From positions 1-60,780 of the IMG/VR virus record IMGVR_UViG_3300033273_000409: a stretch of 60,780 nucleotides of DNA; one strand, written 5' to 3'. Under the pieces are notes generated by a model, which was not told the origin of the DNA, did not search any database, and saw nothing but the letters and a program-made list of their open reading frames with translations. This document shows, in pieces, positions 4,607-40,200 of the stretch (positions are counted from its first letter, which is position 1; each line of letters opens with the position of its first letter). Origin of the DNA: a virus. The translations under genes and the position numbers were made by a program.

Positions 4607-4611
4607 ATGCT

Positions 4612-4696
4612 GGGAGTGTGGCGGAATAGGTAGACGCACCAGACTTAAAATCTGTTGGGCATTGTGCCCGTGAGAGTTCAAGTCTCTCCACTCCTA
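4612..4696 (+). tRNA. tRNA-Leu (UAA)
   Basis: A class II cloverleaf can be folded. Acceptor GGGAGTG pairs with CACTCCT (one G-U at the first pair). The anticodon stem CAGA/TCTG encloses loop CTTAAAA with anticodon TAA. A long variable arm (GGGCATTGTGCCC) and T arm GAGAG-TTCAAGT-CTCTC follow. CCA is not encoded. It reads UUA/UUG leucine codons. Confidence 0.93.
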
Positions 4697-4698
4697 TT

Positions 4699-4772
4699 GC
4701 CACTCTAGCTCAGCTGGATAGAGCAACGGTTTTGTAAACCGTAGGTCGTCGGTTCAAGTCCGACGAGTGGCT
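4699..4772 (+). tRNA. tRNA-Thr (UGU)
   Basis: Acceptor GCCACTC pairs with GAGTGGC. The D arm contains AGCTCAGCTGGATAGAGC. Anticodon stem ACGGT/ACCGT encloses loop TTTGTAA with anticodon TGT, and the T arm is GTCGG-TTCAAGT-CCGAC. CCA is not encoded. Only two bases separate it from tRNA-Leu, so both come from one transcript. It reads ACA threonine codons, frequent in the virion genes here. Confidence 0.95.
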
Positions 4773-7800: not shown

Positions 7801-10800
7801 TCGAGTGGTCCTCTGATTCAGACACAATTCTACTATGCATATCCAACTAGCACATCAAGATTCAAGATCGTTGCTACATTTGACGATGCAAATAATGATA
7901 GAAACCTGATTACTTTAGGTGCTATCGCTGCTGCTGGTTCCGTCAAAGTATTTGCTAACTCTGGTCAGTGGCAAGCTGCTCCATGGATTACAAGATGCCC
8001 ACTACAGTATGATCCTCTGAATCCACTGGGTGCCTCTAATCCTGTAGACACTGAAACAGGAACTGCTGGTAACTGGATTGTAACTACTAAGACAGCAAAC
8101 AACCAGGTTATTGATGCTCTTTTGAGTGAAGGGGACTTCCAAGGAGATCAAGCACCTAAAGCAACACAACCAGCAAAACTCAAGCGTCAGAGAGACGTTA
8201 GAACTAACTATGATAGAACATATAGATTCAGATATGTTCTACCTAAAGAGTTCAAGTCTGCTCGCCCACCATTCCTTGGTTATGTTGTAAAACTAAGAAC
8301 TAATGCTGATGGATATGTACCTGAGACATGGGATGGTGGTATTCCTGGAGACTATACTCAGTATGAAAGAACATATTACATCTATGACATCACTGAGGTT
8401 CAGGACTTTATTCCTGGAGTACAAGATGGTGTCTACTATCTGACACTGCTGCTTGCAGATATTCAGGTTGATCATGACAGAATGGTTCGTGGTGATGGTG
8501 GTTCTATCTCACAAAACTGGTTCAAGAAGTTCAAGTTTAGTCAGAGCACCGCTGAACTATATCCTTCATTGGATGCTGATAATCCTGTCAGTAATGCACC
8601 AGTCGCTAAATCAGTTGCAGACCATAGAATTCAAGGTTATGTTTACTCTGATTCTAGAAGTCATTCTATCACTAGAGAGGCAGCAGCTTCTTTCCTCAAT
8701 GATAACAACTATGCCACGGTTGCAATCTCTAACATTACTGTAGAACGTGAAGGTTCAGCAAGAAGAGGTAGAGAAGACCAGTCAAGAATCTTACCTGTTG
8801 GTTATCTGAGAAGTGGTTCTTCAAATAGAACTGAAGATGAGGGTATTCAGATTGAACTTCGTAGACCATCTTTGGTTAGATCTGGTAACCATACGTTTGA
8901 ATATGTTGGTTATGGTCCTGGTAACTACTCAACTGCTTTCCCTGCTAAGCAACAACGTGAACTGACAGATCGTGAGGTTGTTGTATCACAGGCGAAGAAA
9001 GAAGATGCGGGTGTTGTATTCTATTCTGGTCTGAACTCACAGGGTGATCTATATGTTGGTAACCAGAAGATTAATGCTGTTACTGGTGCAATCGAGATTA
9101 TTGATGAGGCAATTCTAGAGGTTTCTGCTGTACCTGCGGACAACATTCCTGTTGGTGATGAAGAAGGTGCAGATTCTGGAGATGATGTATTTGATCTTGT
9201 TGTCAAAGGATCACTAACTGTTGAGAACTCTGACCAAGATTCAGCTGCTAGACAGAAAGGATCTGTTAGGGGTCCAACTAAGTTTTTAGGTGGTGTTCAG
9301 TTCAATACACCTAAGGATGCTGGAACTAAGACCCAGAAAGTTACATTCTATGGTGCAGGTAATGGTTTCTCAGTAAGAGATACTGGTGATTATCGTGGTG
9401 TTCATGACCTATTCTCTACAAACAACGTAAGTTTGAGAGCAGTTGGTGTCGAAACTTCTGGTGGTGAAATTACATTTGAAACCTATGATACTGATTTAGC
9501 ACTAAGAAAGGACACTACACTTTGGGCGCTAACTACACGTCCACCAATGCATGCTGCTGGTGCTGGTGATAACATTGAGAACATGGTAAGTTCTGCTGGT
9601 CTACTAGTAGATGTTACCTGGGCTCATGGTCAAAGTTTTGGTGATGTTGCACACAAAGCATCTGCTGCATTGAGTGCTGATGCTACATCAAACAACCAAT
9701 CTTGGATCTTCTTACCTGATCCTGCTGGTCAAACTGATGGTGTCTGGTATCAAACAGGCATGACAAAGACTGGTGGTCTATATGCTTTTGAGGATAGAGA
9801 TACACCAACTGAAGGTAGACTAGGCATCAATGGTTACTATAGAAACTCTGCACGTACCTCTAACTTCTACATCAAAGCAGGATCTACACGTCCTAATGAT
9901 TGGTTGGTAGGTATTGATAAGTCTGATGGATCTCCTGTTATGTGGATCGATCAGTCACGTTCTGGTGCTTCTGGAGCACTGACACAACCATCAGTTGCAT
10001 ACTTCCAAGACGCTCCAAGAACAAGAATTACTGAACTTGGTGGTGGTGTTTATTCATTCGATGTTGCACCTGGATATGTTTCTGCGTTTGGTGATACTGT
10101 TGTAATGTCATCTGATCTATACCTAGAAGACGATATGTTCTTCCGTGGTCAGACTAGTGGCATCTCAATTCCTAACAGTCATGTGTGCTATTCATCTTTC
10201 CAAAATGACAATGATGAGAACTATTTCTTCAGAGTTAAGGAACCAACTAACACTAATAATGTCTATAGAAACTTCAGTCTAAACAACGGTTTCTCACAAC
10301 CTGCAGGTACACTCTTCTCACCAGAAATTCGTGATGATATTATGAACCAAGCACTACCTGTTGGTGCAGTTATCATGTGGTCTGGAACTAACTCTAACAT
10401 TCCGAGTGGATATGTTCTATGTGATGGTGGTACATACAACAACAGATTTGGTACGACAACAGTTGCACCAAACATGACAGATAAGTTTGTCAAGGGTATG
10501 TTGAGTGCTAATGGAACTGGTGGTCAACATACTCAATCAAGAACTATTTCAATCTCTGCTCACGAACTATCAAGACCAGAAATTCCTGCTCACACTCACG
10601 GTTTGAACGGTCAATACTTCGAACACAAACACAACTATACTAAAGCTTATACGTCAACGGAAGGCACTGAATTGGAGCAAGAAGGTGTGCCCGATGGTAG
10701 CAGATTGTCTTTCATGACTGATGCATTGACTAGTAATCCAGACTATGGAGATGGTGAGACCCAACCTGGACCTGATTTCCACAACGATGTAGGTGGTGGT

Positions 10801-11085
10801 AGAACTAACAGAACTGGTCCTGGTTCTGGTGGTAATCACTCACTTGATGGTGGAGTTAGTGATCCTAGAAGAGGTGACAGTAGTGGTTCTGGTAACTCTC
10901 TAGGTAATTCAAGTAACGGAAGAGCATACGCACACCATCACCCAATTCAAATTACTGGTACTGGACAAGGCGATTCTGGTAGTGTTAATGCCAATGACTA
11001 TGGTACTGGTGATTCAGATAGTGCAACTCTATCATGGGATAACCAACCAGAATGGGTCAGTCTTGTATTCATTATGAAAGTTTGA
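4885..11085 (+). CDS. Large tail fibre / tail collar protein
   Basis: 2066 residues, late-expressed from TATAAATA at 4844. The N-terminal part (about 1-130, with N-R-G-N-S-P-T-R-P-F-K-T-I-Q-R-A-L-L-E) and the long middle look like a beta-solenoid fibre shaft of the kind seen in cyanophage virion proteins. Residues about 1823-1870 (L-P-V-G-A-V-I-M-W-S-G, P-S-G-Y-V-L-C-D-G) are a phage tail collar domain. The end is His- and Gly-rich with P-A-H-T-H-G, E-H-K-H-N and A-H-H-H-P, similar to the metal-binding HxH motifs of T4 gp12 and gp37 tips. The C terminus is the likely receptor-contacting end. It is the last structural gene before the accessory block. Confidence 0.8.
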   Translation: MSLTRLTNLISSTEGRFLYVDPSEFNSSDLISNRGNSPTRPFKTIQRALLEVARFSYVAGPDKGNDKYDQYSILLSPGDHWIDNRPGYFVDWDKDTNYWNTDQEINGQVIVPKLTDGSNFNIFDDNNDLFKFNSTEGGVVIPRGTSIIGSDLRKTRIRPRYVPDPMYAEYLDSNNIGYGTSDYKQPGAYVEEAYNQTLGRTSFFRVTGACYFWQFSIFDAVPTNTGGIYRYATNDFADIVKFTKYSANYEWNLSQQPLTTDATTGLGSHHKITGFEYANGMSVADIVCTQAVNDPTATDIYLNKINSGSQARIFMGDYLLIDNSTASSREVVRVKKVYPEESRITVYRNQLGTTAPALHEANTKITKLNDLGLYYAKVARGFSDADIIDPITDAEGEIEARQQENRIVGPLNVDNRIESIAINLIQGSRYRISVTTRGSHGLFKNQIVSLKDLDVTETSQGTGFGGDINGTVFVTSVINANTIQCEKVLSSSTIPQTYSFNTTAAATLIADIDTVDSASPYIFNCSIRSVFGICGMLADGSKATGFKSMVVAQYTGVSLQKDDRAFVRYMYQIQNRTDADGNPLKDPAWLTESQVGFTLPSDQVSTTVATLHSEGSALYRDDWRTFHVHITNESLIQAVSVFAVGFCDHFLIEDGGDISITNSNSNFGNTALRAIGFREKSFPQDKFGKITHIIPPKKIDDTAIDELSWYPFDVAKVQSSNTNATRTKLHLFNAKTPNKTPTYLFDNKYVLGGKQDEDLDVEMTLGAITVVKNVQLATNVTGSGSFEHVQEKVFTVNPNTDVCTLSGGQTHQWRTGTPVRIESEMGYLPDGIEPNTTYYIISENGGRWTSSGQGWNGPTGTITNRDSQFKLAKTIEEARAGTAIDVRTDNPPKTVNTQGEITATGELRVIQRTSDMRPTPTSFEFITSTNSNEFITVNDATALGPTEIPHGFDKGQPIFFVKSSATDTMPSLSSGPLIQTQFYYAYPTSTSRFKIVATFDDANNDRNLITLGAIAAAGSVKVFANSGQWQAAPWITRCPLQYDPLNPLGASNPVDTETGTAGNWIVTTKTANNQVIDALLSEGDFQGDQAPKATQPAKLKRQRDVRTNYDRTYRFRYVLPKEFKSARPPFLGYVVKLRTNADGYVPETWDGGIPGDYTQYERTYYIYDITEVQDFIPGVQDGVYYLTLLLADIQVDHDRMVRGDGGSISQNWFKKFKFSQSTAELYPSLDADNPVSNAPVAKSVADHRIQGYVYSDSRSHSITREAAASFLNDNNYATVAISNITVEREGSARRGREDQSRILPVGYLRSGSSNRTEDEGIQIELRRPSLVRSGNHTFEYVGYGPGNYSTAFPAKQQRELTDREVVVSQAKKEDAGVVFYSGLNSQGDLYVGNQKINAVTGAIEIIDEAILEVSAVPADNIPVGDEEGADSGDDVFDLVVKGSLTVENSDQDSAARQKGSVRGPTKFLGGVQFNTPKDAGTKTQKVTFYGAGNGFSVRDTGDYRGVHDLFSTNNVSLRAVGVETSGGEITFETYDTDLALRKDTTLWALTTRPPMHAAGAGDNIENMVSSAGLLVDVTWAHGQSFGDVAHKASAALSADATSNNQSWIFLPDPAGQTDGVWYQTGMTKTGGLYAFEDRDTPTEGRLGINGYYRNSARTSNFYIKAGSTRPNDWLVGIDKSDGSPVMWIDQSRSGASGALTQPSVAYFQDAPRTRITELGGGVYSFDVAPGYVSAFGDTVVMSSDLYLEDDMFFRGQTSGISIPNSHVCYSSFQNDNDENYFFRVKEPTNTNNVYRNFSLNNGFSQPAGTLFSPEIRDDIMNQALPVGAVIMWSGTNSNIPSGYVLCDGGTYNNRFGTTTVAPNMTDKFVKGMLSANGTGGQHTQSRTISISAHELSRPEIPAHTHGLNGQYFEHKHNYTKAYTSTEGTELEQEGVPDGSRLSFMTDALTSNPDYGDGETQPGPDFHNDVGGGRTNRTGPGSGGNHSLDGGVSDPRRGDSSGSGNSLGNSSNGRAYAHHHPIQITGTGQGDSGSVNANDYGTGDSDSATLSWDNQPEWVSLVFIMKV

Positions 11086-12144: not shown

Positions 12145-13215
12145 ATGTCTCTCAACGACGCATTCAATACTGAATCGTTTGTGAATAGTTACTGGGCAAA
12201 GGATCATTGTGATCCTGCAGTCTGGGACTATGTTCCCTCCACTTATGGGGTGGAAGGTGCAGAACTGGTTGGTGAAAAGCACATGAAGTTTTTCTCTGAT
12301 CTTAACAACTCCTGGAAGAATCCTGGACGAGTTAGCACTGACCCCAAGCGTGTTAGAGAACTAGTTACCGAGATTGTAGAGAACGGTATCAAGACCCAAG
12401 GTAGCGTAATTTATTATGATGTTGACACACTTGATCGTGTCAATGGTACACACCGCACAGAAGTTGCTGCCGAATTAGGTATCGACGGATGGATGATGCA
12501 GGCAATTCGCTTTACTAGTGAGCGAGCAAAGATCGAGTTTGCCACTCTGTCTAATAACAGAAAAGATCTCCTGCACCTGAATACTTCACCAACAGATGTA
12601 TTCGAAGCAGTGTGGGCTTTGAATAATCTTGATGATAACTTTGATGAGCAGCAGGTAAAAGCAGACGTACTTCGTCTGGGTTGGCACCTCACCAAGAAGC
12701 AGAAAGAGAGGATTTTTGATAATCTGATCATGAAGTTTCGATTGAGTGGTGCTGCTCCTACCCGCAAGTATGCTGATTATAATACTAATCAGTTCCACTC
12801 TTTGATGGCAGAGATGTCACACAGAGACCTCAATCCTACCTGGGTTGATATGTGGGAAGACGAGGATTGCATGACGTTGTATATCAACGCTAAGCAGTTT
12901 GAGTCTCGCGTTGGTACTATCATCAATGCAAATGTGCAAGCAATCAAGGCAAACAAACCGCTGCACATTATCTACAGTGTGTCAATTCCTGAGGGTGAAA
13001 AGAATACCCTACAGACCAATCGATTGTCTTTCTGGACTACACAGATGGCATCGATTGAGACTCGCATGATGGAATCATGTGGTCTTCAGGGTGATATGCA
13101 CCGCCGAATCTTTGCTTGGAATGATCCAAGATGTGAGCATCGTGCGGTTGCTCAAGATAACATTCAGGAGGATCAGTTTGACCTTATCAAGGTAAGAAAC
13201 CGAGACTTCAACTGA
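12145..13215 (+). CDS. ParB/sulfiredoxin-like domain protein
   Basis: 356 residues. Residues about 65-120 resemble the ParB N-terminal fold: a helix V-R-E-L-V-T-E-I-V-E-N-G, a strand Q-G-S-V-I-Y-Y-D-V, then D-R-V-N-G-T-H-R-T-E-V-A-A-E-L-G-I, which fits the G-x-H-R nucleotide-binding motif (residues 101-104). The remaining 230 residues are mixed helical and unrecognised. ParB-like proteins include CTP-dependent partition factors and nucleases or modification enzymes. It has its own consensus promoter and ends just before a strong terminator, so it is a single-gene unit. A link with the array at 22.8-23.1 kb is only a speculation. Confidence 0.6.
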   Translation: MSLNDAFNTESFVNSYWAKDHCDPAVWDYVPSTYGVEGAELVGEKHMKFFSDLNNSWKNPGRVSTDPKRVRELVTEIVENGIKTQGSVIYYDVDTLDRVNGTHRTEVAAELGIDGWMMQAIRFTSERAKIEFATLSNNRKDLLHLNTSPTDVFEAVWALNNLDDNFDEQQVKADVLRLGWHLTKKQKERIFDNLIMKFRLSGAAPTRKYADYNTNQFHSLMAEMSHRDLNPTWVDMWEDEDCMTLYINAKQFESRVGTIINANVQAIKANKPLHIIYSVSIPEGEKNTLQTNRLSFWTTQMASIETRMMESCGLQGDMHRRIFAWNDPRCEHRAVAQDNIQEDQFDLIKVRNRDFN

Positions 13216-13295: not shown

Positions 13296-14537
13296 TTGAC
13301 CATCACTCTCCTTCCCCACCAGCAACGTGCTCTCGATTCTATGAGCAGTGCTGCTAAGGGTCAAGTGCTTGTCCCCACAGGCGGTGGCAAGACCATGATC
13401 ATGATCCGTCACGCGCTGCGTATGCTCGCTGATGGTCCCCGTACCATTGTTGTTGTTGCTCCTCGCATCCTGCTCGCTAACCAACTATGCGAGGAGTTTA
13501 TGCAACAAATTGACAGTAAGTATGTTCATGTTGCTCACTGCCACAGCGGTGAGACTCACTACTTCAGCAGCACTAAGTCTGAGAAGATTGCTCTGTTCAA
13601 TGATGTTGCCCGTACTGCCGATGAGTCCTGCATTATCTTCACTACCTATCATTCACTACGTCGTGTTGTTGACTCTGGTATTGACATCGACGTGGCTTAC
13701 TTTGACGAAGCGCACAATGCTTGCTCTAAGCAATTCTTTGTTCCTGTTGCTGCTTGCTCTAATTTTGCAGATCGTTCATTCTTCTTTACTGCTACTCCAC
13801 GTCAATCACGTCGGCATGATCGTGGCATGAACAACACCATGGTGTTTGGTAATGTTATCTGCAATGTTCCTGCACCTGAACTGATCAACAACGGTAGCAT
13901 CATTCCTCCTGTTGTTGTTGGCATTGAGACCAATGTTGATCGCACTAAGGATAGTGCTGCTCAGATCGACGCTGATACCGTCTCTAACATCATTGATAAC
14001 CTTGATGATAGTCAGGCAGCAAAGGTGTTGGTTGCAGCACCTTCCAGTCGCGTCCTGGGGCGTATGCTGGGGCAGTCTGATATGATTCAGCAACTCAAAG
14101 ACCGTGATTATCACGTCCTACATATTACTAGTAAGTTCGGTGCATATGTTGATGATCGTAAGGTCAACCGTGAAGAGTTTTTCAACACTCTGACCACTTG
14201 GGGTAGTGATCCTTCTAAGAAGTTTGTAGTCTTCCACTATTCTATTCTGTCCGAAGGTATCAACGTCCCTGGGTTGACTCACTGTATCCTTCTTCGCAAC
14301 CTGAATGTTGTTGAGATGGCACAGACTATCGGTCGTGTGATTCGTATTGATCGCAACGATGCTGCTGACATTGCCTCTGGCAAACTTATCCCTGGTCAGT
14401 GTCAGTTCTACCGCAAGTCTTGTGGATTTGTTTCAGTTCCTGTCCACAACAACTACGGTGCTGCTACAATCAAACGCCTTCAGAATGTAGTTGACGCTAT
14501 CTTCGTGAAAGGTATTCCGCCCCTCGCACTGGTGTAA
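13296..14537 (+). CDS. SF2 DNA/RNA helicase (DEAH box)
   Basis: 413 residues with the full set of superfamily 2 motifs: Q-type opening L-L-P-H-Q-Q-R-A-L, Walker A V-P-T-G-G-G-K-T (26-33), D137-E-A-H140, F-T-A-T-P (about 163-167) and motif VI Q-T-I-G-R-V-I-R-I-D (about 341-350). The only suitable start is TTG at 13296, since an in-frame stop lies at 13281. It is shorter than T4 UvsW (503 aa) but could act similarly in fork regression, R-loop removal or recombination. It is transcribed from cassette 2 and uses more C-ending codons than the virion genes, suggesting efficient early translation. Confidence 0.88.
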   Translation: MTITLLPHQQRALDSMSSAAKGQVLVPTGGGKTMIMIRHALRMLADGPRTIVVVAPRILLANQLCEEFMQQIDSKYVHVAHCHSGETHYFSSTKSEKIALFNDVARTADESCIIFTTYHSLRRVVDSGIDIDVAYFDEAHNACSKQFFVPVAACSNFADRSFFFTATPRQSRRHDRGMNNTMVFGNVICNVPAPELINNGSIIPPVVVGIETNVDRTKDSAAQIDADTVSNIIDNLDDSQAAKVLVAAPSSRVLGRMLGQSDMIQQLKDRDYHVLHITSKFGAYVDDRKVNREEFFNTLTTWGSDPSKKFVVFHYSILSEGINVPGLTHCILLRNLNVVEMAQTIGRVIRIDRNDAADIASGKLIPGQCQFYRKSCGFVSVPVHNNYGAATIKRLQNVVDAIFVKGIPPLALV

Positions 14538-22299: not shown

Positions 22300-22542
22300 T
22301 TACTCCGTTTTTCTTGTACCCAACCCAGTCTCTCTTGCTTTATTCAATCTCCACCAATCTTCTGCTGTCTCATGTGATTCAAAGTATTTTACTTTTCCGT
22401 GCCAGAATAAAGTAAACTTATCAAGTAATGACTCATATGATATCATTGGAGCTTCCTCTGATTCATATACAATGTCATTCTCATAGCAATCATGGATGAA
22501 TTTTTCCATATCTGCCTTTTCTTCTTCAATCCATCTGTCCAT
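22300..22542 (-). CDS. Hypothetical protein, 80 aa, only minus-strand gene
   Basis: M-D-R-W-I-E-E-E-K-A-D-M-E-K-F-I-H-D-C-Y-E-N-D opening, then S-Y-E-S-L-L-D-K-F-T-L-F-W-H-G-K-V-K-Y-F and A-E-D-W-W-R-L-N-K-A-R. Composition is protein-like and there is no competing plus-strand frame. A longer start at 22608 would add a hydrophobic leader (I-H-I-L-L-Y-I-F-L-F) but reaches into the DnaA-box palindrome, so 22542 is preferred. Its promoter must lie in the origin-like region, which thus sits between divergent genes. Confidence 0.65.
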   Translation of the reverse strand: MDRWIEEEKADMEKFIHDCYENDIVYESEEAPMISYESLLDKFTLFWHGKVKYFESHETAEDWWRLNKARETGLGTRKTE

Positions 22543-22600
22543 AGTAGTAAGTGCGGAGAATAAAAAAATGTATAATAAAATATGTATGTGTTGTTTATAG

Positions 22601-22654
22601 TTTTCCACAAGGATGTGGAAAAAGTGTTATAAACTGGGGAAAACATGTGGAATA
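22601..22654. promoter_or_regulatory. Left DnaA-box cluster
   Basis: TTTTCCACA-AGGA-TGTGGAAAA is a perfect 9-bp palindrome (22601-22622), followed by TGTGGAATA (22646-22654). It overlaps the probable promoter region of the minus-strand gene. Confidence 0.65.
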
Positions 22655-22762
22655 TGATCTTTTGTAATCTTATGTCTTCTTATGTCTTCTTATGCCAAAT
22701 CTTATAGTCATCTTAGCGTGCATGTTAACACAAAACTCCGAAAATGTCAAGACCTCAAAAAT

Positions 22763-23059
22763 CTAGTCTAGGGGTTGACAAAAATCTCGACTAGGGTTAT
22801 AATAACTCTACTAGATTCAACTAGATTTCATATAATCTCGACTAGATCATATATCTCTACTAGATCTCTACTAGACCCTTCTAGAATCGTCTATAACACG
22901 TCTAGAACTAGATCTCTACTAGATCTACTAGATTCTTCGTAATTCATAACTAGATGCACTAGATCATGTACACATATACGTACTAGATCATAACTAGATC
23001 ATGCGTGTATATGTGTACTAGATGAGCGAGAATGCGTGTACTAGATGTACGTGTACTAG
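22763..23059. repeat. CTAG array: 20 copies, 13 within ACTAGAT
   Basis: CTAG starts at 22763, 22768, 22791, 22811, 22821, 22842, 22860, 22871, 22881, 22902, 22908, 22919, 22928, 22950, 22959, 22983, 22994, 23018, 23041 and 23056. Thirteen are in ACTAGAT, most often preceded by T or A, with longer versions TCTCTACTAGAT and TCTCGACTAG. Eleven of 19 spacings are within about 1.5 bp of one or two helical turns (9-11 or 20-22), so a bound protein would sit repeatedly on one face. No protein frame runs through it, and it is not a CRISPR: there are no constant spacers or long repeats. Confidence 0.85.
22775..22803 (+). promoter_or_regulatory. Perfect consensus promoter firing into the CTAG array
   Basis: TTGACA (22775-22780), exactly 17 bases, TATAAT (22798-22803). 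The transcript would start near 22810 and run through the array with no gene for over 500 bases. A CTAG lies in its spacer and two just before the -35, so array-binding protein could repress it. Confidence 0.8.
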
Positions 23060-23155
23060 ACGCACATACGCTCACCCCACTCACCCCTACCCACACCATT
23101 TGTGCGTGTTATGTGTTATAATGTGTGTGTATGTGTTAGGTATAGTGGGGGCACG

Positions 23156-23239
23156 TATTCCACAGATATTCTGTCTCAAGGGGGGAAAAACGATGAAATT
23201 TGTATAGTTTTCCACAAATATTTGAGAATCTGTGGAAAA
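23156..23239. promoter_or_regulatory. Right DnaA-box cluster
   Basis: TATTCCACA (23156-23164), TTTTCCACA (23208-23216) and TGTGGAAAA (23231-23239); the last two form a 9-bp inverted pair around 14 bases. A further dyad, ATCACGT/ACGTGAT, lies at 23265-23285. Confidence 0.65.
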
Positions 23240-23374
23240 CGTTTGTTTTGCTAATATTATTGATATCACGTGTACACTACGTGATCAAGTACTGTTGTGA
23301 CAGTTTCTGAACTGTCCACTAATTGCCCCATTCGTCCTCGGATGGGGTATTATAATATCAATCGCAACCACTTC

Positions 23375-23575
23375 ATGGCAGATCGTATCATTGATCGTGA
23401 TTCTCTGCAGGAAAATTACATCGAAGCAATCATCGATGGAATGGATCACAAGTCCTTGTGGGCGTTCGTTTATGATAACCTGAACGATCATTTGGATAAG
23501 TATAGTGTCAATGAGTTGATTCAGGAAGTTGAAGAGTATTATCCTGAACTTCTTGAAGAAAGTGAGGCTAACTGA
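23375..23575 (+). CDS. Small acidic protein, 66 aa
   Basis: M-A-D-R-I-I-D-R-D-S-L-Q-E-N-Y opening. Start at 23375 because a CCCCAT/ATGGGG hairpin (about 23326-23347) and TATAAT (23351-23356) lie in the longer frame. Helical and acidic (L-I-Q-E-V-E-E-Y-Y-P-E-L-L-E-E). First plus-strand gene after the origin-like region; unrecognised. Confidence 0.6.
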   Translation: MADRIIDRDSLQENYIEAIIDGMDHKSLWAFVYDNLNDHLDKYSVNELIQEVEEYYPELLEESEAN

Positions 23576-23866: not shown

Positions 23867-24070
23867 ATGCTATTCCAAGTCACACAGATTGAGTTCGACT
23901 TTGAAGATTCTGCGTCCTATGATAAGGAACCAGGATATTTTCAGAGTATTATTGATGAAACATTAGAAGGAGTTTGGGAGGCAGAGGATGGTGATGATCT
24001 CATCGAAGAGATAACATGCGCCACAGGATGGTGTGTAAAATCTATAGATTATCGTCACGTCCTTAAATGA
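23867..24070 (+). CDS. Conserved cyanophage small protein, copy 2
   Basis: 67 residues, M-L-F-Q-V-T-Q-I-E-F-D-F opening, W-E-A-E-D-G-D-D-L-I-E-E-I-T core and S-I-D-Y-R-H-V-L-K end: paralogue of the protein at 18684. Position relative to the origin-like region differs (one copy each side). Followed by a different small gene than copy 1, so it was not a simple operon duplication. Confidence 0.75.
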   Translation: MLFQVTQIEFDFEDSASYDKEPGYFQSIIDETLEGVWEAEDGDDLIEEITCATGWCVKSIDYRHVLK

Positions 24071-24219
24071 ACATGAACACCGAACCTTGCCGCTATTGTG
24101 GTGGAAACTGTCCCCAAGATGAAGAATATGCTTGCGACGGATACTTAGGGGACATTGATGAACTCTACTCTTCTGAGGGGTCGCCCAACCAGTTGACAAG
24201 GTGGCACACAACCCCTTGA
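24067..24219 (+). CDS. Small Cys-rich (zinc-ribbon-like) protein, 50 aa
   Basis: ATGA overlap with the previous gene. Residues 8-23 hold four cysteines (P-C-R-Y-C-G-G-N-C, then Y-A-C-D-G), followed by G-D-I-D-E-L-Y. A zinc site is plausible. Its last ten codons overlie the repeat ACCAGTTGACAAGGTGG and the promoter for the next gene. Confidence 0.6.
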   Translation: MNMNTEPCRYCGGNCPQDEEYACDGYLGDIDELYSSEGSPNQLTRWHTTP

Positions 24220-24244
24220 TTTTTGCCCGATTCTGTGCCATGAT
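24188..24244 (+). promoter_or_regulatory. Promoter element, cassette 6
   Basis: Repeat (24188-24204), GTGGCACA (24201-24208), TTGATT (24216-24221), 17 bases, CATGAT (24239-24244). TGGCACA (24202-24208) and TGTGCCA (24234-24240) are exact inverted copies around the -35. Confidence 0.55.
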
Positions 24245-24250
24245 ACCATC

Positions 24251-24418
24251 ATGAACAAAACAACTTCCAACCCCTACGAAACCTACATCCTGTCCAAGGG
24301 TCGCGATCTGCCCAAGGCACAACCCAGCACGGGTAAGGTGCCTGCTCGCTTCGCTGACCGCTTCGCCACCTACGAAGCATACCAGGAAGCGATGGCAGAC
24401 TTCCTCAACGGTCTGTGA
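24251..24418 (+). CDS. Small protein, 55 aa
   Basis: M-N-K-T-T-S-N-P-Y-E-T-Y-I-L-S-K-G-R-D-L-P opening and a helical end (Y-E-A-Y-Q-E-A-M-A-D-F). The start lies about 6 bases after the -10, so the mRNA may be leaderless. C-rich codons. Unrecognised. Confidence 0.55.
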   Translation: MNKTTSNPYETYILSKGRDLPKAQPSTGKVPARFADRFATYEAYQEAMADFLNGL

Positions 24419-24478
24419 CAGTCGGGGTACTGTCCCCAACCTATTGACTTTCCACCTGATCTCTGCAATCATACATAC

Positions 24479-24649
24479 ATGGCACAAACATCATTCCGAA
24501 ACGGCGACTCCTACGGGATATCCGACCGCTACACTACACGCGAAGATGGGGACTGGGATGATATCATCTCCCCCGACGATTATGAAGAAATTCTTGATCG
24601 TAAACGCTTCAATCAATCAATGGGTTACAATGCATGGAGGGGAATCTGA
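24479..24649 (+). CDS. Small acidic protein, 56 aa
   Basis: M-A-Q-T-S-F-R-N-G-D-S-Y-G-I-S-D-R-Y, then D-G-D-W-D-D-I-I-S-P-D-D-Y-E-E-I. A GGGGTACTGTCCCC dyad and TTGACT (24444-24449) lie upstream. Stop overlaps the next start. Unrecognised. Confidence 0.5.
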   Translation: MAQTSFRNGDSYGISDRYTTREDGDWDDIISPDDYEEILDRKRFNQSMGYNAWRGI

Positions 24650-24771
24650 TGTGGGATGAAATTCAAGACATGCCAGGCGAAATTTTTGACCTGGACATTG
24701 ATGATCGGGAATTGATGCCACCCGACATGCAAGAGGACATTGAGAAGGAAGACCCGTTGCTGGACGATTGA
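24649..24771 (+). CDS. Very small acidic protein, 40 aa
   Basis: M-W-D-E-I-Q-D-M-P-G-E-I-F-D-L-D-I-D-D; about 15 of 40 residues are D or E. Coupled to the previous gene. Possible DNA-mimic or host-factor ligand, without direct support. Confidence 0.45.
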   Translation: MWDEIQDMPGEIFDLDIDDRELMPPDMQEDIEKEDPLLDD

Positions 24772-24842
24772 GCAACTGTCCACCATTGTCCTCAAACCCC
24801 TCCACGGGGTGCCATACTAAGATCAATCAAACGAACCACACC

Positions 24843-25091
24843 ATGAACGGATTCACCAACTACGAAACCTGGAACGCTGCTCTCTGGATCGGCAACGATG
24901 AGTTTCTCTACAACACCGCTAAGGCATGCGTTGAGTTCTGCGATGTTACAGAGACCCCTTGGCAGAAGTTCGTCCGCTGCATGACTGACGGCGTGGTCGG
25001 TCGGTTCATCGGTGAGACGGGCGACGGCGTGCGTTGGGATGATCCTGCCATCGACGCTGCAGAGATGGAGGAAATGCTGTGCGATCTGTGA
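24843..25091 (+). CDS. NYETWN-type conserved phage protein, 82 aa
   Basis: M-N-G-F-T-N-Y-E-T-W-N-A-A-L-W-I-G-N-D-E opening is the hallmark of a small family found in many phages and plasmids (unknown function). ATG 24843 is preferred to the upstream extension. A CCCC/GGGG hairpin and CATACT lie 30-60 bases before it. From this gene on, base composition becomes clearly GC-richer. Confidence 0.7.
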   Translation: MNGFTNYETWNAALWIGNDEFLYNTAKACVEFCDVTETPWQKFVRCMTDGVVGRFIGETGDGVRWDDPAIDAAEMEEMLCDL

Positions 25092-25138
25092 TCTCTGCCC
25101 TTACCAAACCCCGATCCCCATCCTACCATCGTCGCACC

Positions 25139-25294
25139 ATGCTTAAGTTGATCGTTGCCGCTGGTCTGCTCTATCTGCTGTGGGAACCGATCAAACCCGT
25201 CCGCAGTGTGACAGCTGAGATACTGTACCAAGCGGGAGATCTGATCAAAGCAGACTCCCTTATGATTGATCACGAACCACAGCAGAGACCATGA
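25139..25294 (+). CDS. Small membrane-anchored protein, 51 aa
   Basis: M-L-K-L-I-V-A-A-G-L-L-Y-L-L-W-E-P is an N-terminal hydrophobic segment without a cleavage site; the rest is an amphipathic soluble tail. Probably a single-pass inner-membrane protein. Overlaps the next gene by four bases. Confidence 0.55.
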   Translation: MLKLIVAAGLLYLLWEPIKPVRSVTAEILYQAGDLIKADSLMIDHEPQQRP

Positions 25295-25539
25295 CCGACC
25301 TTCCGACCTTCGCCGTCCAACCCGCCGCCTGGGAGACCTTGGACACCTACGGATGCGACTGGGCGATCGACATGTCCCACGCCTATAAGATCGCAGCGAT
25401 CTGGCAGGAGATGAACGACGGCGGCGATATGATGATCTGGCGCGTGACCCCTGGCGGTGATCCGATCCGCTGGGTTCGGGTTTATGAGTATGAGTCCGTC
25501 GATGTTGTGGCAGATGACGCACTGGCACTCCTCTCTTGA
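25291..25539 (+). CDS. Hypothetical protein, 82 aa
   Basis: M-T-D-L-P-T-F-A-V-Q-P opening, helix (A-Y-K-I-A-A-I-W-Q-E-M-N), then beta strands (M-M-I-W-R-V-T, W-V-R-V-Y-E-Y). GC-rich. Unrecognised. The next promoter begins inside its last codon region. Confidence 0.55.
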   Translation: MTDLPTFAVQPAAWETLDTYGCDWAIDMSHAYKIAAIWQEMNDGGDMMIWRVTPGGDPIRWVRVYEYESVDVVADDALALLS

Positions 25540-25564
25540 CCTGACCGCCAATCCGCTGTATCCT
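25536..25564 (+). promoter_or_regulatory. Sigma-70 promoter
   Basis: TTGACC (25536-25541), 17 bases, TATCCT (25559-25564), 28 bases before ATG 25593. Confidence 0.65.
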
Positions 25565-25592
25565 TAAGAAGTCAACCGCACAACACCCGAAC

Positions 25593-25919
25593 ATGCGTAA
25601 GATCGAACGACTCATGAACGATGCCATCTCCAACGGCACCGATTGGCAGAGCGCCAACACCAGCGTGACCCATACCGATGACGTGGCACAGGTCCGACTC
25701 CATGGTAACCTGATCGCTGAGATCGGTGACAACTTCATCCGCCTGTTCGATGGTGGGTGGCAGTCCAATACCACCAAGTCCCGCCTGAATGCCATCCTGG
25801 CAGAGCATGGCGAGCAGGGTGACGGCGTTTTCCAGAAGGACTGGCAATGGTTCGTCCAGATGAACACCGCCCAAGGTCTGACCGTCGTCCCGTTCTTCTC
25901 CTCCATGCGCCTGGGGTGA
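25593..25919 (+). CDS. Conserved phage protein, 108 aa
   Basis: M-R-K-I-E-R-L-M-N-D-A-I-S-N-G-T-D-W opening, V-R-L-H-G-N-L-I-A-E-I-G and F-D-G-G-W-Q-S-N-T-T-K-S-R-L-N-A-I-L in the middle, F-Q-K-D-W-Q-W-F-V near the end. I recognise this as a family common in phages with no assigned function. Private promoter and GC-rich codons. Confidence 0.7.
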   Translation: MRKIERLMNDAISNGTDWQSANTSVTHTDDVAQVRLHGNLIAEIGDNFIRLFDGGWQSNTTKSRLNAILAEHGEQGDGVFQKDWQWFVQMNTAQGLTVVPFFSSMRLG

Positions 25920-26018
25920 TCCCCCCCACCGAGCTCTGAGATTCTGAAGAAATGTTACTGCCCCTGGATTCTGCCGCCTGATGCTGTAGGATACGGGGGA
26001 ACCAATCAAAGGACACCT

Positions 26019-26228
26019 ATGCGTTTTCTGAACACCTGGATCGATTGGCAGAACGTCCCCAGCAGTGCCGTCGCCTCTATGCGAATCCGCCCCCGTCGTC
26101 GGTCGGTCACCATTGAATGGCGATCGGGGCACTACAGCACCCACACCGTGCGCCGCCGCGATATGATCCGCCTGCTGGATCCCCGCCAATCGGTCGGGCA
26201 GTGGGTGAATTGCTTCGCCCTGGGGTGA
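26019..26228 (+). CDS. Small very basic protein, 69 aa
   Basis: M-R-F-L-N-T-W-I-D-W-Q-N-V-P-S-S-A-V-A-S-M-R, then R-P-R-R-R-S-V-T-I-E-W-R-S-G-H-Y-S-T-H-T-V-R-R-R. The S-x-x-V...S-V-T-I-x-W-x-x-G-x-Y arrangement resembles KTSC-type beta-barrel proteins; high Arg content suggests nucleic-acid binding. Upstream 100 bases show no clear promoter. Confidence 0.55.
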   Translation: MRFLNTWIDWQNVPSSAVASMRIRPRRRSVTIEWRSGHYSTHTVRRRDMIRLLDPRQSVGQWVNCFALG

Positions 26229-26231
26229 GGG

Positions 26232-26259
26232 TTGACCCCCTCCCCCGATCTGCTACAAT
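26232..26259 (+). promoter_or_regulatory. Sigma-70 promoter
   Basis: TTGACC (26232-26237), 16 bases, TACAAT (26254-26259), 27 bases before the nuclease start. Confidence 0.6.
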
Positions 26260-26286
26260 ATCCCTAACGATCCAAACCAACGGACC

Positions 26287-26784
26287 ATGACCCACACCGC
26301 ACTCATCGAATCCCTCCCCATCTATCAGAAGTGGGAGAGCAGCAAACAGTCCATCTGGGAGGGCAGCAAGTTCCAGTCCTTCCGCAACATCCCCTCCCCC
26401 AAGTCCAAAGGCGCTCAGGGTGAGCGTCTGGTTCAGCAGGTGATGGAGGCGCTCGGGCATCGTGTCGAGCGTCCTGAGAATTCTGATCATGATCGGATCA
26501 TCGACGGATGGAAGACTGAGATTAAGGTCAGCACCACCTGGAACGAAACCCTGGACAACTGGACCTGGCAGCAGATCAGGGAGCAGGATTATGATCGGAT
26601 CATCTTCGTGGGCATCAACCCCAACGACGTGAGCATCTGGTGGGCGACCAAGGAGGACCTTCGTCAGTTCGTGCTGGGTCGTGATGAGATGCGCCAGCAT
26701 GCTGGCAAGGACGGCGGTCAGGAGTTGTACTGGATTCAGGGCAGCGGCAAGCGCCCCTGGTTTCGTGATCTGGCAGACTTCTGA
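26287..26784 (+). CDS. Putative PD-(D/E)XK nuclease
   Basis: 165 residues. G-E46-R-L-V, S-D67-H-D69-R-I-I and T-E78-I-K80-V-S fit the E, D, E-x-K metal site of the restriction-endonuclease fold, on the usual strand order (K-S-K-G-A-Q-G-E helix, then H-R-V-E-R-P-E-N and W-K-T-E-I-K). Later R-I-I-F-V-G-I-N and V-S-I-W-W-A are strand-like. It could be a host-DNA-degrading, resolvase-like or homing-type enzyme. No companion methylase is seen. GC-rich and set between its own promoter and a strong terminator, it behaves as an independent cassette. Confidence 0.65.
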   Translation: MTHTALIESLPIYQKWESSKQSIWEGSKFQSFRNIPSPKSKGAQGERLVQQVMEALGHRVERPENSDHDRIIDGWKTEIKVSTTWNETLDNWTWQQIREQDYDRIIFVGINPNDVSIWWATKEDLRQFVLGRDEMRQHAGKDGGQELYWIQGSGKRPWFRDLADF

Positions 26785-26793
26785 TCCTACCAC

Positions 26794-26820
26794 GGCGGGG
26801 CGGGTGCCTCGCCTTTTTTT
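26794..26820 (+). terminator. Strong terminator
   Basis: GGCGGGGC-GGGT-GCCTCGCC (one G-T pair) followed by seven Ts. It ends the GC-rich block. The 207 bases to 27027 hold only the promoter at 26996. Confidence 0.92.
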
Positions 26821-26995
26821 GTAAAAACAGAAAAGGTGTTTCGACAGTGTTATTGAGAACGGTGGGGTCTTATTGCGAAAGCCCCGTATATTAATTCTAT
26901 GGGTCCCTCTAACCTACAAAACTTTGAAAACGAGCGATAAGTATTCTGTTTTCGAATTCGCAAAAGGGGAACCTAGTGATCAAAAAAATTTTCCG

Positions 26996-27004
26996 TGGTA
27001 TAAT
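26996..27004 (+). promoter_or_regulatory. Extended -10 promoter
   Basis: TGG-TATAAT preceded by an A7TTTT run (about 26982-26992); no -35 of standard form. It lies 24 bases before ATG 27028. Confidence 0.55.
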
Positions 27005-34242: not shown

Positions 34243-37200
34243 ATGACCAACATTTCTCAATTAGTCGATAACCAACTACCTGAGTTTTTCGTTCAGGAAT
34301 ATCCGCTATTTGTTGATTTTTTCAAACAGTATTACAGATATACTGAAATTGATAATTCATCATCATCCATTCTGAAGAAAATTCAGACTTATCAGGGTGC
34401 AGATTTTTATAAAGATGGTATTATCCTAGAAACCATCCTTGCTTCTGACGTTAGTGCGACAGATACTCAAATCACCCTTTCTAGTGACGTAAACAAGGAT
34501 AAAGCAGTAGATAAGAATGATGTACCCATTTTTAGGAGATTTCCTAAAGAGGGATTGCTTCTCCTGAAATCAAGTAATGGTGATGAGATTGTACAATATA
34601 AGTCATACGATAAAAATACAGGTGTTTTTAGTCACCTAAAGAGAGGTGCTGCAGGTACAGTTAAATTAGGTGACCTTTTATTAGAATCTGACTCATATAC
34701 TAGTACAGATGCAGTCGCGCATAGTGCATCTGATACTACAGTAACTAATATTACTCATTTGTTCTTGGCATCTCTGTTCAAGAACCTAAAAACACAATAT
34801 TTCTCTGGTCTACCAGTAGAAAGACTAAACGAGAGTGTAAATGTACCGACTGTACTAAAATACATCAAAGATTTTTACAGATCTAAGGGTACAAGTCCTG
34901 CTGTAGAATTTTTATTCAGAAGTTCGTTCAATGACGAGAAGATTCTCGTTAGATATCCAAACGAGCAACTCATCAAAGCTTCTGAATCAACTTGGTCTAT
35001 TGATACTATTGTTCAGGGAGACTTAGTAACTCTTAAATCTGGATATACTATTGATGATCTCTCAGGATTAGTTCTAAAACAGTCAACATATGCTTATGAT
35101 CCTTCTATTATAGAAGCATCTGCATCTATTGAAAGAATTGTTGCTGTAAAGAGTGGTGACAGGCAATTATATAGAATTTTTGTCAATAGTGAAAGTACAA
35201 CAGGAACTTTCTCTCCAATAAACCAAACTCTAAGTAGAGTAAACTTTTCTTTTGGTCAAAAATCTCTAGTTGTTGATTCTACTGTAGGATTCCCAGAAAT
35301 TAATGGGATATTCTACATTGATGGAGTTGTAGATCAAAATGGAGATGCTGTTGCCTTTACATATGCAGAAAAAACTGGAACTGAGTTTTATGGTATTGAA
35401 AGTAACGCTCTAGGGTTCACTACAGCACAAAAGAATACAAGAGTTTATAGTGGAAATATTGTAAGTGTAGTAGAAGATGTTACTTCTTCTATGAATTCTG
35501 CTTTTGCTGAATTTAGACCAACAGGAGTTATTACAGACTTCAATATTGTAAATAGTGGTTTATTATTATCTGAAGGTGATAAATTTGACTTTGTTCAGTC
35601 TGGTATTGAAGGTACTACGCCAATTGAAACCTCCTGGTCACAGAATGTACCAGGAAATGAGGCAAATGTGAATTTGGTAAGTGTTTCTGGTCAGATGGAT
35701 GCAACTTATCTGCAAGGAAACTATAGAGTTACTAAGGGTGTAAACGGTGTATATGATGATGGCGATTACGTATACGTCTCTTCCAACGGATTTCCAGATG
35801 TAATTGGATCAATTGGTAATATCAATGGTGGTCCTAATGCGTTACTTAGACCAGCTTCGCAAAGACATCTGAAAAAGATTCCTAAGCAACTAAGTTTTGC
35901 ACAAACATTATATGCTCTCCCAGATGATAATACGGTTGCAGTATCTGTTGATGGTGTACCTATTATCTCCCCAACAGGAACAAATGAAATAATAACTAAT
36001 AGAGAATTGGTAACTCAAGGTGAAGTTACCAAAATCAATGTTACCAATGGGGGATCTGGTTACTCTGCAGCACCTAGGGTAACGATTAGTGGTGTTGGTG
36101 GAGCAGCAGGAACTGCAACCATCTCAAATGGTAGTGTTATTGGAATCACTATTACTTCTGCGGGTCAGGGTTATACTTATAGACCAGAAATTACTATCTC
36201 CACTGGATCTGGAGCAGTTTTACAGGCAAATTTTGGATCAAATAATAAACTAGGGGATATTCAATCTTTAGATATTGTAAACAGTGGATCTTTCTATACT
36301 CAGACACCAGATATCGAAGTTGTAGACGAATCTGGGAGGGGTAGAGGTGCTAAATTTATTGTTGAGAATATTGATCCAGTAAACGGTAATATTACATCAA
36401 TCAAGAAAGTTTCTGGTGGTTTTGACTATGATCAGTCTAAAACCAAGATTTATGTAGTATCTACTGGCACTGGAGCAACAGCAGAAGCAGAAATCAGAAG
36501 CTGGCATAGAGATAACTATGCGGCATATACACAGTTTGCTGATGATGCAAATGGATATCCTTTCCAAGGAAGATTGCCAGAATATAATGATGCATATTAT
36601 TATGTTGGTAACCCTAGAGGTTATAGAATTACTAAAAATGATAATATTACTCCTAGTGGAGTTGAATTGCCATCTGATCTCTCACACTCGCCAATTGTTG
36701 CTTGGTCTTATGATGGAGTACCAATTTACGGTCCAGTCGGATATTCAGATCCAATGGATTCCACATCTGATCTAAAGAGAGTAGAATCTTCATATTATCT
36801 GAAAGAAAATAGAGGTGTAAATGGTCCCACTGCAGTGGAATTTACTATGGGCACCTTTGTAGAGGATTATGAGTATAAACCAGAAGGAAATGCTCTACAT
36901 AAAGACTTAGATAAGCATAATGGTCGATTCTGTGTTACTCCAGATTTCCCAGAAGGTAGATATTGCTATTTCTTGACGATTCATACTAGTGATGATGTCA
37001 ATCAAAAGAATAGACAGGATGCTAGACCAAGATATCCTTATATGATTGGTCCAACATATAAGTTCAATCCCGAAGACTCTAATTTTACAACAGAATCGAT
37101 TCTATCATCTTTACCTTCTAACGCAATTAGAATTAGAGATGTAAATGATAATGTTCCTAATTTTGGAGTTAATTTAGAAGCAACTGTAACTGCAGTTTCT

Positions 37201-40200
37201 TCTGGAACTGTAGATTCTGTAATTATCGAAAATCCAGGAAACAATTACTCAATTGGAACAGATAATTATTATCCACGATTTGTTGCTGGGGATAAACTTT
37301 TTGTAGATGATACAAATACTGAGGGTGTAGGATTTTCTGGTAAGGTTGCTTCTATTATTGCAAAAAATGATTCTGGATCGGATATTGGTGTATCTTCTAT
37401 TTCATATTCATCAATTACTGGAAATTTAGACGTTAGAAAGCAAATTCTAAATATTGCTCCACCAACATTTGATGGTACAAATTTCCAGTATAATAAAATC
37501 TTTGAAAGTGATACTATTGTAGATACATCTAAGACTGTATATAATCTTGAAACTGCAATTCCATGTTCCGCTACAGATACTGTACTTAGATTTAGAGAAG
37601 CGAACACTTCCAATGTAAATATTGGAGATACTGTTGGTATTCAATCAGAAAGCATTTATATCAGTAGTGCATTCACTAATAGTGTTCAATATGCATATTT
37701 AAGTGTAGCAACTACCCAAACACAAGATCCAGTTTCACCACAGACTGACCGAGGATTCTTCTGCAAGTATGAGGGTGGTAAAGCACTGTTTGATGAAATT
37801 TATGTAGATTCTGGAGAAAATTCAACTAAAATCGGTAAAATCCTAGAAATCAATACAGTAGCAAATGTATTGAAGGTTGAGATGTATATTGATCCAGATA
37901 CACAAAATTATTATTCATTCCCAGCGTTGGGAACTGGCATTTCAAACCAAATTCAGACCGAACCTCGATATAGTCAGAATGTTAGTGCTATTGAATATGT
38001 ACAAGAAGTTACTGTTGTTAGAGGATACGATGGATCCAATGAATCCAAGCATCCTTCTGGTGTAAAATGCCCAACCCAAGTTCCTACTGCAACTATTGAC
38101 GATTATAAGGTAAGACTTCAATTTACTGGTGCTGATCCATCTTTATTTGTTCCTGGAGTTTACATTAAGGGTCAAAACTCAGATACTACCGCACGTATTG
38201 AACTGGTAGAAACCATTTCTGCAACTTCAGGATATTTGTATCTAACTGATGTAAAAGAAGGACCAAATGCTGCTGATGTTCCTAGATTTGGTATTTACAA
38301 TAATGGATCATTCAATCCAGAAACTATCAATGAAATTGGTGCTGGTGTATCAACAACACTTACAGAATCTGTTGATGGGGATGACACAGTACTAAAAGTT
38401 GTCAATAGCGATCTTTTCTATGTCAATCGTTATGTCAACGTTGGTTCCGAACTAATGAGAATCACTGACAAACAACCAGGTCAGTTGACAGTTGCTAGAG
38501 CACAGGGTGGTACTCCTGCAGATGACCATTCAGTAAATGCCACTGTAAGTATTGCAAACCATACTGCTACAACAGCAGGTGATACATATCAACTCACAGT
38601 TTCTTTGGAAAACGCACAAAGATTCTCTAATACTAGCACATTCAATGATAACAATGGTGATAGCATTGCGATCGATACTGTTGCTGATGGTAAATTATTA
38701 GGAGAGGAGAATACTTTAACTATTGATGCTCAAAATTATGACAGGTTCGCTCTCGGTGATATAATCAAGATTGGAACGGAGCAAATTAGAATTGATAGTA
38801 AGAGAACTAATCTTCTAAGAGTTACAAGAGGATTCAATCAAACTACTGCAATCAATCACAACCATAATCTCTCTGTAGAAAATGTTAGTAAGTACGATGC
38901 ACTCGTAACTACAAATACTCCTCATGATTTGATTGATAGTGATCTCATAGAAATTACTGGAGATCCTTCATTAGAGACAGTTCAAGAGACTGGTATTGCT
39001 GTTAGAATTTCAAACGGTCAGTTTGAATTCAATAGTGTTCATACTAATGGAAATTATCAGCAAAATCCGTCATTGACTTTAGTTTATGGTCATAAGTATG
39101 TTTTTGATGTCTCAGATTCATCTAATACAAATACTACTCTTGGATTGTATTCTGATAAAGACTTCAATAATGAAATTTCTGTAGAAAGAATTGGTGTCCC
39201 TGGTTCATTGAACTCTAAAGTTATTTTGAAGAATACCAATAGAGACAATACTAATATTTACTACAATAATCCCAATGCTCTTATTTCTAGCCTAACAAGT
39301 AGACTTACATTTATTGATGATCCATATAATGTTTCTTTGACTGGGGTATTTGATCTGACCACCACAACATTCAAGTATCTTGTCAGATCTAGACCAGAAG
39401 GGAATGCTAGAGGAACTAAGACACTTGCACTGCAAAGTCATAGGTATTCTGGCAAGATTAATAGAATTTCTATTACAGATAGTGGTGATGGATATCAGTC
39501 ACTGCCAGTTATCAAGGGTATCTATTTTAGAGAAGAGGATGCATTCAGAGGCACCGTTATTACTGATGATGATGGTACAATTCAAAGAGTAGATATTGAT
39601 TTTGGTGGAACAAGATATATTTCACCAAAAGTATATGTCATTGGTAATGGAAGTGGCGCATCAATGACTGCTGATGTTCTTGACAATAGTGTCAGACGAA
39701 TCACCATTAATAATGGTGGTTTTGGGTATGATAAAGACACTCAATTAGTCTTAGTTGAAGAAGATGCTAGAACAGCAAGAATTCTTCCTCAAACTAAAAC
39801 CATTGGTAAGATTTCAGCATTCAGTATCAAGAATCCTGGACTTGATCTGACAAGTAACTATACGATGGCACCTCAGGTCAGAATTCCGACCACTATCCAA
39901 GTTACTAACATCAATGGTGAATATAGGAAGGGTGAGACTGCATATCAAGGAAACGTAAATAATCCATCAGGAAAGGGTATTGTTGAAAGTTTTGATACTA
40001 AGATCAATGTTCTAAAACTTGTCGGCGTCACAGGTCGCTTTGTTGATGGAGAAACTGTTGTTGGATATACGTCTTCAGCAACTAGTAATGCAAATAAAGT
40101 AAACCTGTCTAAGGTTTCTGCAACTGTAGGTGCTCTAACTACAGTTGAAGGCGTATTTACCGATGAATTCGGTAAAATGAATACTGCATCTCAAAAGATT

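Follow-up and report, generated by a model that had tools for sequence, protein, structure and literature searches.

Positions 22543–23374 of a viral DNA record (IMG/VR record IMGVR_UViG_3300033273_000409, positions 1–60,780; this whole 60,780-bp stretch is hereafter called the window) carry DnaA boxes, promoters, and direct repeats, which we analyzed as a candidate replication origin. The window represents part of a T4-like cyanomyovirus genome (Kyanoviridae). Its genes are arranged in the order baseplate hub/lysozyme, tail fibres, helicase (13296–14537), small open reading frames (ORFs), the region described here, further small ORFs, and then PAAR, which is followed by gp25- and gp6-type baseplate wedge genes. 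No gene with a PHROG or Pfam match lies over 22543–23374. A previous reading of the DNA, made from the letters alone (the sequence-only reading), had likewise described this stretch as gene-free and had proposed that its DnaA boxes form a phage replication origin or a decoy for host DnaA.

Exact TTTTCCACA sites occur four times in the 60,780 bp, all inside 22543–23374, and form two convergent inverted pairs whose spacers (N4 on the left and N14 on the right) are helically phased (Table 1). Dinucleotide shuffles of the window (300 trials) gave a mean of 1.06 exact sites and a maximum of 2 per 832 bp. The sequence-only reading had counted six 9-mers in the stretch; the four exact ones were confirmed, and the one-mismatch variants numbered three instead of two. 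The total of one-mismatch sites over the window was at the chance level (25 observed vs. 24.5 expected), and the weight of the argument therefore lies only on the exact sites and their pairing. The exact 15-base direct repeat TATAGTTTTCCACAA, at 22596 and 23203, was present as previously described. An intrinsic terminator was considered for the inverted boxes and rejected, because their T's lie 5′ and their A's 3′, the reverse of a terminator stem, and because the box spacers track the helix pitch and not loop rules. Furthermore, no Rfam match to a structured RNA was found in the window except for two tRNAs located elsewhere.

TTTTCCACA is the cyanobacterial DnaA box of the oriC beside dnaN (PMC5987646). 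In the 600 bp upstream of dnaN, the commonest shared 8-mer was TTTTCCAC, which was present in 23 of the 29 Cyanobiaceae genomes, often as inverted pairs. These results support the cyanobacterial type that the sequence-only reading had assigned to the boxes. DnaA domain IV was not detected in 25 phage records, and no DnaA is encoded in the window. A phage-encoded DnaA was thus rejected for these records, and the binder of the boxes would have to be host DnaA.

The stretch also contains parts that the sequence-only reading had not described, i.e., a 20-copy CTAG array, two divergent promoters, a TTAGCGTGC element, and a low-stability segment (Table 1). By nearest-neighbour stability, no other 40-bp segment of the window is as unstable as the one that abuts the left boxes. 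A second unstable segment (22796–22835), directly behind the rightward promoter, is in the top 0.02% of the window, and the counterpart DNA of S-BM3 and S-PM2 is likewise among the top 0.02% for instability. The stretch thus combines two properties of oriC-type origins, clustered host-consensus DnaA boxes in an ordered spacing and easily unwound A+T-rich DNA adjoining them. GTNGNCTTAGCRYGC (22712 in the window) sits between the boxes and the promoter, at a distance from the boxes of about 55–165 bp across the phages compared. The TTAGCRYGC element was absent from 61 Cyanobiaceae genomes, and a host origin of the element was rejected on this basis. It was also considered as a leftward −10 hexamer; it overlaps the −10 in one group of phages but not in the window or S-BM3, and it was therefore kept as a separate element.

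The −35-like GTCAA/TTGAC of the leftward promoter is kept in relatives, and the 80-amino acid (aa) minus-strand ORF is probably transcribed leftward from this promoter. The rightward promoter is found in the same position class in Syn9, P-SSM7, Syn19, S-SM1, S-SSM4, P-RSM4, and others. In regards to the CTAG array, shuffled sequence contained at most 8 copies per 300 bp. The CTAG spacings are mostly 9–11 or 18–24 bp (about 10 and about 21), which matches the expectation for protein sites on one helix face, and the array looks like a set of candidate protein-binding sites. When IMG/VR was scanned for triplets of ACTAGAT, arrays were numerous but almost none lay near DnaA boxes; the array was thus rejected as a widespread phage motif, and that of the window is lineage-specific.

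Table 1. Features in and beside the gene-free stretch (window coordinates).
Feature	Position	Strand	Remarks
80-aa ORF without assigned function	22300–22542	−	Conserved in S-BM3; no PHROG match, no Pfam match over the cut-off
Candidate A+T-rich unwinding element	22558–22597		Contains AAATGTATAATAAAA, related to AAATGTATTAAAAAA in S-BM3, S-PM2, and DSL-LC02
Left DnaA-box pair, TTTTCCACA-N4-TGTGGAAAA (22601+, 22614−)	22601–22622		Weaker boxes at 22635− and 22646−; kept in S-BM3
Conserved element CTTAGCGTGC, TTAGCRYGC class	22712–22721	+	Lies 3′ of the left boxes, at about 110 bp
Leftward sigma-70-like promoter, TTGACA-N17-TAACAT	22722–22750	−	TG before the −10; points toward the minus-strand ORF
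CTAG iteron array, 20 copies in 297 bp	22763–23059		13 copies in ACTAGAT on the + strand
Rightward sigma-70 promoter, perfect TTGACA-N17-TATAAT (12/12)	22775–22803	+	Reads into the CTAG array
Weaker DnaA box TATTCCACA	23156–23164	+	One-mismatch scan
Right DnaA-box pair, TTTTCCACA-N14-TGTGGAAAA (23208+, 23231−)	23208–23239		Exact-site scan
Leader segment with GCCCCAT/ATGGGG hairpin, 5′ of the next gene	23297–23355	+	Homologous intergenic/5′ segments in several cyanophages
66-aa ORF, phrog_1352, DUF7326; first downstream gene	23375–23575	+	PHROG/Pfam

We scanned the whole records of 23 Kyanoviridae cyanophage isolates for paired boxes, defined as two or more exact TTTTCCACA sites within 60 bp. 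Paired boxes were found in 13 isolates (S-PM2, S-RIM32, S-SZBM1, S-CREM1, Syn9, DSL-LC02, P-SSM7, Syn19, Syn1, S-SM2, S-ShM2, Syn33, and S-SM1), usually as the top cluster of the genome. A 180-kb genome has about five sites, a density at which chance would give a pair of this kind in <1% of genomes. S-BM3 and S-SSM4 have degenerate versions of the boxes, and S-TIM5 has only two TTTTCCACA sites, about 200 bp apart. Paired boxes were not found in whole-record scans of T4, P-SSP7, P-HM1, and Pelagibacter phage HTVC008M.

S-BM3, the closest named relative by DNA in this region, has the same order as the window, namely helicase, small ORFs, a homologous minus-strand ORF, and a gene-free stretch. 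The left boxes are retained there as one exact copy followed by TGTGGATAA and TGTGGAA, and the CTAG array of this stretch numbers 14 copies per 300 bp. The box cluster is syntenic in the genomes compared: in Syn9, S-BM3, and the window it is flanked on one side by the helicase gene and on the other by a large gene preceding the baseplate region, and in P-SSM7 it lies 5′ of the same kind of large gene. A second box cluster is located 0.4–1 kb away in several phages. The sequence-only reading had set a lack of the boxes in relatives as grounds for its own refutation, and the proposal withstood this test. The arrangement is family-wide and not a peculiarity of a single phage, and several relatives are without boxes.

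In Syn9, the annotated genes gp86 and gp87, which are doubtful ORF calls, span the boxes and the TTAGCACG element (Syn9 52477–52797; 12477–12797 of locus L263). Arrays of 4–7 TTTTCCACA boxes in about 300 bp, with no TTAGCRYGC element, were seen in four other loci (L017, L048, L063, and L101), which have what appear by eye to be T4-type baseplate genes.

Paired boxes of the high-affinity type and the lack of a phage DnaA would also suit the decoy option of the sequence-only reading, i.e., a datA-like site at which host DnaA is titrated and host chromosome replication is blocked. We regard this as very unlikely. The boxes number only four to seven, and they share one place in the genomes compared, yet a decoy would work anywhere. 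Moreover, the spacing to the promoter and the element is conserved, which a titration site would not need. It is also unlikely, though less so, that the boxes are sites for another phage or host protein (e.g., a nucleoid, partition, or packaging factor) that coincide with the cyanobacterial DnaA box. The box match is at the level of sequence, some relatives are without boxes, and no binder is assigned to the CTAG array, all of which would leave room for such a protein; however, the 9-mer equals the motif enriched upstream of host dnaN, and the relatives that use boxes carry TTTTCCACA itself and not other variants.

The TTAGCRYGC element was used as bait in IMG/VR. The GTAGTC form, its commonest, gave 30 loci, and in 29 of them TTTTCCACA boxes lie no more than 200 bp upstream (beyond the region, the loci of this set contain 8 boxes per 402 kb). 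The GTTGGC form gave 26 loci, only 6 of which have boxes. These loci include near-duplicates, and the counts are not independent events. Most of the box-less GTTGGC loci, as well as S-RSM4 and S-WAM2, have TTGAGAATCAATAA inverted repeats at the box position, which we take to resemble Fur-type sites. Such repeats were seen at the upstream position in L249 (1700–2120; S-WAM2), L251 (1690–2180; S-RSM4), L358, L363, and L367, and both the repeats and DnaA boxes were seen in L013 and L366. In S-T4 (L250, 1280–2330), ATCTCGACTAGATT-type iterons lie behind a promoter-like site without intact DnaA boxes, which indicates that iterons and boxes are separable. The core (A+T-rich segment, TTAGCRYGC, and promoter) thus predates the DnaA boxes or is under stronger constraint than they are. 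S-RSM4 and S-WAM2 combine the core with another inverted repeat, and DnaA is therefore not universally required.

We also scanned IMG/VR for TTTTCCACA-N2..30-TGTGGAAAA. Among the matches listed, at least 116 distinct spacers gave peaks at 4, 14–15, and 25–26 bp, and the spacers were phased at 10.5 bp with a Rayleigh p of about 1e-24, a statistic that ignores kinship. The two pairs of the window fall on the first two of these peaks.

The main alternative, which we consider less probable, is that the region is a transcriptional control region, in which host DnaA would regulate the two divergent early promoters and tie early transcription to the replication state of the host, with no replication start. 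The boxes stand at a fairly fixed distance from both the sigma-70 promoter and the TTAGCRYGC element, S-RSM4 and S-WAM2 carry at this place an inverted repeat resembling a regulator site, and the conserved leftward −35-like TTGAC faces the boxes. However, the adjacent least-stable DNA, the second box cluster of several phages, and the extended non-coding tracts of iterons or A+T-rich DNA past the promoter are left unexplained, and the boxes lie far from the rightward start for a typical activator, at least about 170 bp upstream of it. An origin and a control region are compatible readings because T4 origins are themselves promoters.

The region matches both the oriC-type arrangement of boxes by unstable DNA and the T4-type promoter designs, which makes an origin with DnaA assistance the most likely reading. 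We favor, with moderate confidence, the view that this DNA would act as an early-promoter-driven, bipartite, DnaA-assisted replication origin of a T4-like cyanophage, comparable to T4 oriE supplemented by DnaA boxes. The boxes proposed as the origin by the sequence-only reading are cyanobacterial in type, conserved, and adjacent to unstable DNA, but the unit is larger than the boxes and includes the promoters, the element, and the iterons. From the anatomy, conservation, spacing, and instability described above, we infer DnaA binding, melting, helicase loading, and replication start at this stretch. Early in infection, host DnaA would bind the phased inverted TTTTCCACA pairs on both sides, and host RNA polymerase would fire the rightward promoter and transcribe through the CTAG array. 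DnaA binding and transcription would together open the two unstable segments, the one next to the left boxes and the one just past the promoter, and the opened DNA or an R-loop could let the phage gp59/gp41 helicase system or a host helicase load. Theta-type replication would come first, and the phage would then switch to recombination-dependent replication; a passage of a review (PMC2984593) mentions a single theta origin predicted in Syn9. The box-less relatives carry a different inverted repeat upstream, and DnaA is therefore probably a helper or timing factor in initiation that the family does not strictly need.

Several observations weigh against an origin of this kind. Eight of the 23 Kyanoviridae (S-WAM2, S-RSM4, S-T4, P-SSM2, P-SSM4, P-RSM4, S-SSM7, and S-CRM01) were without paired boxes in the scans, and the box-less S-RSM4, S-WAM2, and P-RSM4 retain the TTAGCRYGC core. 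In P-SSM7 and Syn19, a small ORF closely follows the promoter, as with an ordinary early promoter. No initiator-like gene was recognized nearby, and the flanking small ORFs match families without assigned function or none in PHROG and Pfam. The instability is partly expected of any gene-free stretch. As for strand composition, the GC skew has no clean inflection at the stretch, and the third-position skew (compared with S-CREM1 left out) drops 3′ of the element, where it is confounded by the structural genes. The GC skew of eight whole genomes was dominated by gene orientation and codon use, and composition skew thus speaks neither for nor against an origin here.

In regards to the flanking DNA, 40–60 bp of the hairpin leader exhibit 80–95% identity to DNA upstream of small genes in S-WAM2, S-H9-1, S-RSM4, S-SSM4, and S-T4, which suggests a shared regulatory cassette. 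To the right of the region, positions 24000–27000 have a G+C content of 50–57% vs. about 40%, and long minus-strand ORFs overlap short plus-strand genes (phrog_554 and phrog_6927) there; this block is possibly acquired DNA. Three ORFs on one strand (34243–46269, 48024–56711, and 4885–11085) encode 4008, 2895, and 2066 aa, respectively. The last of these matches tail-fibre families, and adjacent tRNA-Leu (TAA) and tRNA-Thr (TGT) genes precede it at 4611–4772.

In T4, oriE consists of an early promoter and iterons, and oriF and oriG consist of a promoter and an A+T-rich segment (PMC3016281). The stretch is similar to oriE in that an early-type promoter reads into direct repeats in a T4-type phage, and to oriF and oriG in that a promoter is combined with an A+T-rich segment (PMC3016281). 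However, T4 is without clustered DnaA boxes, the iterons of the window are CTAG-centred and differ in sequence from those of T4, and the TTAGCRYGC element is outside the published T4 origin anatomy. Moreover, oriF and oriG use MotA-dependent middle promoters, whereas the promoter of the window is a perfect sigma-70 promoter with its own −35. Iterons are combined with DnaA boxes in P1 oriR, pSC101, and R6K gamma, and the boxes flank the iterons as in the window; in contrast to these origins, no cognate Rep initiator gene was recognized adjoining the iterons in the window, the iterons are irregularly spaced 7–12-mers, and the phage is a lytic T4-type myovirus. The stretch shares with the cyanobacterial oriC by dnaN the inverted, spaced TTTTCCACA pairs beside low-stability DNA (PMC5987646), but the phage site is away from dnaA/dnaN, in the early-gene promoter region of a lytic phage, and has phage-only elements.

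No published description of this arrangement was found in the open-access literature searched, to which subscription papers do not belong, and we do not claim priority. Those of its papers that name both cyanophages and DnaA boxes concern cyanobacterial genomes, and Ori-Finder has predicted such boxes in one unrelated Pseudomonas phage at least (PMC11512268). Within this literature, a prediction (Syn9) is all that exists on replication origins in T4-like cyanophages, which are very abundant. We tentatively suggest, as a possibility, that much of the Kyanoviridae, T4-like phages infecting ocean picocyanobacteria, may start replication at one conserved bipartite origin recruiting host DnaA, and that in some lineages the DnaA module has been swapped for the site of another host protein with the core origin in place. 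The site is short, conserved, and defined in sequence, which makes initiation directly testable in model pairs, e.g., in Synechococcus WH7803 infected with Syn9 or S-PM2. Use of DnaA, if it holds, would mean that a T4-type phage relies on the initiator of its host, and it would link early replication of the phage to the host DnaA supply and thus possibly to the day-night cell cycle of the host.
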